A stretch of 55,597 nucleotides of DNA, taken from a virus. The stretch is from the IMG/VR virus record IMGVR_UViG_3300014838_000025, positions 1 to 55,597 of that record; one strand, written 5' to 3'. Below, in pieces: positions 12,383-12,938 of this stretch. A program made the position numbers and the translations under genes. Numbering within the stretch: the first letter of the stretch is position 1; each line of letters starts with the position of its first letter. The notes beneath the pieces are model-generated. The model was not told where the DNA came from, searched no databases, and worked only from the letters and a program-made list of their open reading frames with translations.

Positions 12383-12416
12383 TGGTCGGGGTGGTGAGAA
12401 TCGAACTCACTCGACG
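12383..12416 (-). pseudogene. 3' half of a split tRNA-Pro
   Basis: T arm GTGAG-TTCGATT-CTCAC, acceptor strand CACCCCG, A73 and CCA, with no tRNA 5' part before it. Upstream is the stop of the HNH gene. Its acceptor strand is the exact complement of CGGGGTG at 12938, the 5' half of a tRNA-Pro. Confidence 0.7.
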
Positions 12417-12764
12417 TTAGAACAGATCATGTTCTATTCTATGGCAATTGGCACATAGAATCTCACACTTCCCAATCTCCTCCAGTATCCTCTCTCTAGT
12501 CCATCCATCGCGTAAAGCGTTGGCAATAGCAAGAACCTTGGACTCCTTATCTTTATGATGGAAGTCAAGAGCGGCTGGATGGTTGAATCCACATCTCGCG
12601 CACTTCATTTCTGATTTCAACTCTCGAAGCCAAATCCGTTTAGATACCCTACGCCGAGCAAGCCTAATAACAGATTCCTTGTTGTATTGAGACTTGTTTT
12701 TCTCGTACCAAGTTCTCCATGCGGCGTTCTTTTGATCTTGCCTTTCTCGCTCTGTCCTTCTCAT
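12417..12764 (-). CDS. HNH homing-type endonuclease inside a tRNA-Pro gene
   Basis: 115 residues from the ATG at 12764. The core is CARCGFNHPAALDFHHKD followed by ILCANCHRIEH, a compact zinc-bound HNH fold as in free-standing phage homing nucleases. The N-terminus is basic. It lies between the two halves of a tRNA-Pro, so it probably entered by homing. Confidence 0.82.
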   Translation of the reverse strand: MRRTERERQDQKNAAWRTWYEKNKSQYNKESVIRLARRRVSKRIWLRELKSEMKCARCGFNHPAALDFHHKDKESKVLAIANALRDGWTRERILEEIGKCEILCANCHRIEHDLF

Positions 12765-12811
12765 GAAACCGATTATACGTCTTGGGATCACTGAATAGTA
12801 TCCTAAAATAT

Positions 12812-12886
12812 TGGTCGGGGCACCGGGAGTCCAACCCGATCCACATGCTCCCAAGGCACGGATGCTGTGCGTCACACTCTACCCCG
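12812..12886 (-). tRNA. tRNA-Pro (TGG)
   Basis: Acceptor CGGGGTA/TGCCCCG, anticodon arm CGTGC-CTTGGGA-GCATG, T arm TCGGG/CCCGG, A73 and CCA. This copy looks complete. It directly follows the orphan 5' half of another tRNA-Pro. Confidence 0.85.
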
Positions 12887-12938
12887 ATATTTAAGTCATG
12901 ATCCCAAATCATGCGGCCAGCCTTTAGCCCACACCCCG
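12887..12938 (-). pseudogene. 5' half of a split tRNA-Pro (TGG)
   Basis: CGGGGTG acceptor strand, D arm GGC/GCC and a perfect anticodon arm CATGA-TTTGGGA-TCATG with the usual bacterial Pro loop. It stops in the variable region, where the intact tRNA-Pro begins. The matching 3' half lies 470 bases downstream at 12383-12416. Confidence 0.72.

Follow-up and report, generated by a model that had tools for sequence, protein, structure and literature searches.

A tRNA-Pro(TGG) gene in a viral tRNA array is split in its variable loop by a precisely placed insert that carries a complete second tRNA-Pro(TGG) and a gene for a small HNH endonuclease (Table 1). The stretch of DNA that was analysed, hereafter the window, is a viral record of 55.6 kb; its tRNA array lies on the minus strand and contains 29 ARAGORN genes. 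Read in the sense of transcription, the minus strand runs from tRNA-Phe through the 5' half of tRNA-Pro, the inner tRNA-Pro, the HNH gene and the 3' half of tRNA-Pro to tRNA-Arg(ACG). At default settings of the tRNA finder the two outer halves and the inner tRNA all go uncalled, a warning that split and nested tRNA genes escape standard tools.

The explanation that fits best, and that we favour by a modest margin, is that a free-standing HNH homing gene invaded a viral tRNA-Pro(TGG) gene as part of a unit made up of a diverged tRNA-Pro(TGG) and the HNH gene itself. The HNH protein would cut intact tRNA-Pro alleles in the region from the anticodon arm to the variable loop, the unit would be copied into the break, disrupting both the tRNA and the cut site, and the tRNA borne by the unit would substitute for the one that was lost. 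Several observations count against this explanation: the loops of the inner tRNA are non-standard, simple splits without an inner tRNA account for about five loci, the tRNA-Lys cases described below have lost the 5' half without gaining a replacement, movement of the unit rests on a single pair from outside the window, and clustering by isotype on the HNH tree is weak.

Table 1. Features of the split tRNA-Pro locus and other features noted in the window
Feature	Position	Strand	Description
tRNA-Phe	13014-12940	-	Flanks the split tRNA-Pro locus on its 5' side
Outer tRNA-Pro(TGG), 5' half	12895-12938	-	Acceptor CGGGGTG, D arm, perfect anticodon arm, first 2 nt of variable loop (AC)
Insert, 479 bp	12416-12894	-	In variable loop of outer tRNA-Pro; placed by comparison with 15 intact 74-nt homologues
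Inner complete tRNA-Pro(TGG), encoded CCA	12812-12886	-	ARAGORN at relaxed threshold; stems complete; fits a swapped C19:G56 pair
TATAAT, possible -10 box	12772-12777	-	7 nt before the HNH ATG; from comparison of upstream regions
HNH endonuclease gene, 115 aa	12417-12764	-	ATG at 12764; TAA stop at 12419-12417, directly before the 3' tRNA half
Outer tRNA-Pro, 3' half	12383-12415	-	GTCGA (rest of variable loop), T arm, acceptor CACCCCG, A73, CCA
tRNA-Arg(ACG)	12377-12303	-	Flanks the split tRNA-Pro locus on its 3' side
tRNA-Lys(TTT)	~9905-9830		Base 56 other than C
TROVE + vWA protein gene	10342-11754		Ro60-like; inside the tRNA array
YrlA (Y RNA-like) matches	11744-11852 and 11967-12079		Weak; below gathering score
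HNH_5 gene	13333-13926		Flush between tRNA-Thr(CGT) and tRNA-Thr(TGT)
tRNA-Asn	~14312-14229		Base 56 other than C
HNH frame	15797-15318		Runs into 5' part of intact tRNA-Tyr
tRNA-Tyr, intact	15356-15266
Terminase-like gene	44636-47857		Interrupted by an apparent intein with a LAGLIDADG domain
Peptide deformylase gene, viral	49170-49766		Pfam E 5e-32

The outer halves belong to one tRNA-Pro gene

Two pattern scans collected 15 distinct intact homologues of the interrupted gene from other viral records, all of them 74 nt long with a variable loop of 7 nt. The rejoined window halves also make 74 nt, without gap or overlap; they form 20 of 20 stem pairs and keep 38 of the 39 columns that are invariant in the 15 intact genes, the single deviating column being the base right after the join. 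At 73.6 bits the rejoined tRNA scores within the leave-one-out range of the intact genes (65-83). The orthologous tRNA-Pro is uninterrupted in L004, the nearest relative found (its TROVE protein is 68% identical), and the rejoined halves match it along their entire length at 84%; this match and the 15-gene family are the evidence for the 5' half. At least 15 other viral records contain intact homologues, which shows that the halves belong to one tRNA-Pro gene. The ends of the insert can be placed with an ambiguity of only 2 nt (AC). A mismatched-pair control of acceptor matching between 5' and 3' halves was uninformative, since the arrays contain many real tRNAs. Reading the 3' half as part of a tRNA-Arg, on account of upstream bases that resemble the neighbouring tRNA-Arg, was rejected, as its last 32 nt are 94% identical to the intact L004 tRNA-Pro.

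Since the source is an uncultivated viral contig, a spurious split has to be considered, either a chimera made in assembly or a chance match between two unrelated half-genes. Against this stand the gap-free joining of the halves into a conserved tRNA family, the similar insertions in independent viruses and the empty site in cultured phages, and together they leave it virtually ruled out.

A self-removing intron, of group I, group II or another kind, that carries the HNH gene can be set aside almost as firmly. Phage introns commonly hold HNH genes, and group I introns occur in bacterial tRNA genes. However, only about 130 nt of the insert lie outside the HNH reading frame and 75 of these are the inner tRNA, so that a ribozyme would not fit. 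Group I 5' splice sites usually have a U at the position where the insert is preceded by C (or, within the ambiguity, by A or G). An Rfam search over window positions 11000-17000 returned no intron up to an E value of 5. Group I introns with HNH genes in tRNA genes share with the window an HNH gene inside a tRNA gene; the window differs in lacking a ribozyme, in holding an extra tRNA and in its site, which is the variable loop, whereas the group I site is the anticodon loop.

Could the outer tRNA still work, from two transcripts or from a processed and rejoined RNA, as a two-piece or spliced tRNA-Pro? Its halves are undecayed in their stem pairs and invariant columns, and the HNH-split Aeh1 nrdA and phage 25 gene 43 keep their function (PMC2988022). 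Against this, no ribozyme or known intron was found, and no RNA ligase or end-healing enzyme appeared among the window reading frames scanned, although that scan was not exhaustive and the record is incomplete. A recent insertion accounts for the missing decay, and pairs have been lost in the outer halves of L143 and L152. A working outer tRNA is thus very improbable; that the outer gene is dead is an inference all the same.

Most of what a preliminary description of the locus had proposed is borne out by these comparisons. It had claimed a tRNA-Pro split by an insertion with an HNH gene and a second tRNA-Pro, and all of the parts are there on the minus strand; the exact match that it claimed for the acceptor strands also holds (7 of 7 pairs), as does the absence of intron structure, with no match to an intron family and an insert that is too small. 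Its insertion length of 470 bp is corrected to 479 bp, with revised ends. An origin of the halves from unrelated tRNAs, which it had named as grounds for refutation, was examined, and both halves instead match intact tRNA-Pro homologues.

The array holds other genes as well. TROVE relatives of the Ro60-like protein, whose gene has the two YrlA matches beside it, are found in 21 viral loci, many of which adjoin tRNA arrays.

The inner tRNA and the HNH gene

The inner tRNA-Pro has a TGG anticodon, an encoded CCA and full stems. Its loops are unusual: the D loop, GACGCACA, lacks GG, the T loop reads TTGGACT, and the score of the gene falls under the Rfam reporting limit. Are these odd loops a sign of decay? 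A survey of the tertiary pair 19:56 was made in 196 structurally defined viral tRNAs from arrays, with T54, T55 and A58 required and base 56 left free. Among the tRNAs with C56, 182 of 183 have GG in the D loop. The other 13 comprise seven with U56, all with GA and without GG, three with A56, two of them with GT, and three with G56, all with GC, the inner tRNA-Pro of the window being one of these. The loops of the inner tRNA-Pro thus look like a swapped pair (C19:G56) and probably do not reflect decay, and because they fit the 19:56 covariation the inner tRNA-Pro is probably a real tRNA, although this too is inferred. The same covariation weakens the candidate reading of a pseudogene that the odd loops had suggested. 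Its charging and use are likewise inferred.

In array tRNAs without C56 the D-loop GG is nearly always absent, and in its place stands a base with which 19:56 could again form a Watson-Crick pair. They can be regarded as natural swaps of a nearly universal tertiary pair, and tRNA finders miss many of them. Apart from the inner tRNA-Pro and the tRNA-Lys and tRNA-Asn of the window listed in Table 1, they are present in L004, L006, L011, L020, L029 and L044. The related viral array L020 also has an ARAGORN tRNA with the anticodon TTA, which would read the stop codon UAA (1360-1434).

The HNH protein matches PHROG 3106 (E 4e-25) and PHROG 2255 (E 1.5e-23), its Pfam HNH match lying below the cut-off. 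Alignment with relatives shows that the conserved Cys, His and Asn residues are intact, including FHH and NCH, and in a test for a GIY-YIG domain the protein matched HNH families only. TATAAT occurs at similar places upstream of the HNH gene in L004, L141 and L167, and this comparison leaves it possible that the insert carries its own promoter.

HNH relatives occur in 518 of the 50,697 phage records. Close relatives lie flush with tRNAs in the GenBank phages HCTV-16 (Gln), KIL4 and PHB09 (Gly), PVA8 (Asn) and HGTV-1 (Phe). A survey of 86 relatives, which are the closest ones and give no estimate of prevalence, placed 22 in stretches with tRNAs and 12 with a same-strand tRNA close downstream; a direct search for near relatives of the window protein found two, both without tRNAs.

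Other nuclease genes in the window also border on tRNAs. The position of HNH_5 between tRNA-Thr genes is conserved in L004 (4914-5465). The HNH frame that overlaps tRNA-Tyr has similar counterparts in L005 (4580-5190, with tRNA-Asn) and L006 (8691-9026, with tRNA-Met); these frames seem to stop inside the intact downstream tRNA, in or near the anticodon loop in the tRNA-Tyr and tRNA-Asn cases.

Recurrence in other viruses and empty sites

IMG/VR was scanned for the C-terminal motif of the HNH protein followed within 14-44 nt by GTTCGA, a pattern that fixes the T-loop word and does not impose the stem, the CCA, the upstream half or an inner tRNA. A perfect T stem outside any intact tRNA was present in 20 of 52 stretches (about 17 distinct contigs), with CCA in place in 13 of the 20 and the HNH stop 1-15 nt before the T loop in 18. 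The identical pattern returned at least 80 bacterial and archaeal loci, and of the 80 examined one had an orphan T stem; the matches on bacterial and archaeal contigs were mostly coding coincidences.

The viral loci fall into two layouts, with some partial cases. Simple splits, without an inner tRNA, affect Asn(GTT) in L141, Gln(TTG) in L152 and L160, Met(CAT) in L180 and probably Asn in L186. Nested loci have Pro(TGG) in Pro(TGG) in the window, Arg(ACG) in Arg(ACG) in L148, Gln(TTG) in Gln(TTG) in L167 and Trp(CCA) in Trp(CCA) in L143, and L155 and L176 are probable cases of Arg(TCT) in Arg(TCT), the outer anticodon being read from the 3' piece. In L004 and L059 (Pro) and L057 (Trp) the arrangement is partial: the HNH gene has an intact tRNA on its upstream side and is followed by a 3' half. 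Inner and split anticodons agree in all four loci where the outer one is readable (window, L148, L167 and L143). In every nested locus the inner tRNA is flanked by the 5' half and the HNH gene; its start lies -1 to 35 nt beyond the 5' half, and its identity to the rejoined outer tRNA is 64-76% (68% in the window). Insertion points fall between the D arm and the T stem, most of them in the anticodon loop or the variable loop.

On the HNH tree the splitting nucleases fall into at least two well-supported groups. Since nested layouts sit in both, the nested habit probably arose more than once, and a repeated origin fits selection for a same-isotype replacement better than it fits a single accident. 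Several placements on the tree are uncertain, and isotype labels show no more than weak clustering, on which ground a specificity of the HNH proteins for tRNA isotype was rejected.

The clearest case of movement comes from a Trp pair. Between L143 and L144 the 458-bp unit of tRNA-Trp and HNH gene shows 0 differences, whereas over 210 bp of the outer halves and adjacent flank there are 11 (Fisher p 2.5e-6). The identical block starts in the anticodon loop of the outer 5' half, takes in the inner tRNA-Trp and the HNH gene, and reaches the outer T stem. In that stem two of the 11 differences compensate each other (GAGGG/CCCTC against GCGGG/CCCGC), which suggests that both recipient alleles evolved as working tRNAs. 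For this example, and for it alone, recent movement of a tRNA and HNH block between two diverged tRNA alleles is shown, and the block is what homing of the whole unit into two alleles predicts, though as support for homing it is indirect, rests on one pair and does not come from the window. Selection on the unit is a weaker explanation of the identity, since it would not be expected to hold silent sites constant.

Insertions are present or absent among homologous loci not only for the 15 uninterrupted tRNA-Pro genes and the L004 ortholog but also for a tRNA-Lys of Seunavirus. This gene is intact, an empty site, in the cultured phages EC152, 4MG, SalP219 and GAP31. In L163, with flanks that match these phages at up to 98%, the 5' part of the tRNA-Lys has given way to an HNH gene whose TAA stop lies in the anticodon loop; in Klebsiella phage K54_rec1 (L311) a different HNH gene ends in the T stem, and the last 27 bp of the tRNA-Lys match 4MG at 100%. 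Two different HNH genes have thus struck one tRNA-Lys gene, and each time its 5' half is gone. Neither case has a replacement tRNA beside the HNH gene, and because of these and of the simple splits, rescue by a tRNA is not universal or obligatory.

An alternative is that the HNH gene inserted by itself into a tRNA-Pro gene that had another as its neighbour; the inner tRNA would then have been trapped by recombination between tandem tRNAs and would not be cargo. In its favour are the simple splits, the tandem Pro tRNAs of relatives (L005) and the tandem amplification of tRNA segments caused by SegB-type endonucleases (PMC13096335). However, the position of the inner tRNA is constant and its isotype is that of the outer gene in every readable case, the identity between inner and outer tRNAs means that they are not recent duplicates, the identical L143/L144 block includes the inner tRNA, and the records L143 and L059 are without any other tRNA. 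Insertion of the HNH gene alone is therefore unlikely. A regeneration model, in which the element would bring only a new 3' half as integrase-like elements do, was also rejected: the outer halves in the window are of one family and the inner gene of another. Nor does the locus fit a tRNA-targeting integrase element, which would restore an intact target tRNA at one end and hold an integrase gene: the outer tRNA is left in two halves and the HNH gene is the only gene of the insert besides the tRNA.

On the invasion of a tRNA gene by a tRNA and HNH unit, the preliminary description had proposed that a nuclease gene homed into a tRNA gene and that the second copy keeps the function. The intact homologues support the first proposal, with cutting by the window protein still inferred, and the second is supported as a reading, with the activity of the inner tRNA inferred; that second tRNA-Pro is a diverged gene and no simple duplicate. 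The recurrence of the architecture, and the apparent movement of tRNA and HNH gene as a unit, go beyond what had been proposed.

Known systems and a rescue reading

Homing endonucleases usually limit harm by residing in introns, inteins or intergenic sites. Free-standing HNH genes are also known to split genes, as mobE does in Aeh1 nrdA and mobA in the T4 topoisomerase gene (PMC2988022). Here as there, a small free-standing HNH gene lies inside a functional phage gene and needs no intron or intein; in the window the target is a tRNA gene, and the insert adds an intact gene with the function of the broken one. The nearest functional parallel is SegB of T4/T6, a homing endonuclease whose cuts fall inside tRNA genes and which, under pressure from defences, amplifies a tRNA segment (Brok-Volchanskaya 2008; PMC13096335). 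Both nucleases are encoded in phage tRNA arrays, and the cutting of tRNA genes and spreading of tRNA segments known for SegB are inferred for the window protein. Unlike the latter, an HNH nuclease whose gene lies inside a tRNA gene and is accompanied by a same-isotype tRNA, SegB is a GIY-YIG enzyme encoded between tRNA genes. In the open-access literature searched, no paper was found on HNH-split tRNA genes with a same-isotype tRNA inside, nor on endonucleases associated with interrupted phage tRNAs, so novelty is provisional.

A bolder reading, which we think a little more likely to be wrong than right, is that these loci form a naturally occurring cleave-and-rescue drive directed at viral tRNA genes. 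The HNH protein of each unit would destroy the gene for a given tRNA in competing or recipient genomes, the unit would carry a recoded, uncuttable tRNA of the same isotype, and that tRNA would survive only in genomes that hold the unit. The habit would have had repeated origins, spanning at least two well-supported HNH clades and affecting Pro, Arg, Gln and Trp. Drives of the cleave-and-rescue type that have been engineered (e.g. PMC7951863) share this logic of a nuclease plus a recoded copy of the broken gene. The window element differs in being natural, with a self-targeting HNH gene that sits in its own target; cutting, and resistance of the inner tRNA, are inferred, and the comparison is one of logic and not of membership.

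If this reading is true, a breaker of RNA genes that brings its own replacement would be the natural counterpart of the engineered drives. It would also give an additional reason for the redundant, diverged tRNAs of viral arrays, besides codon use and escape from tRNA-cutting defences.
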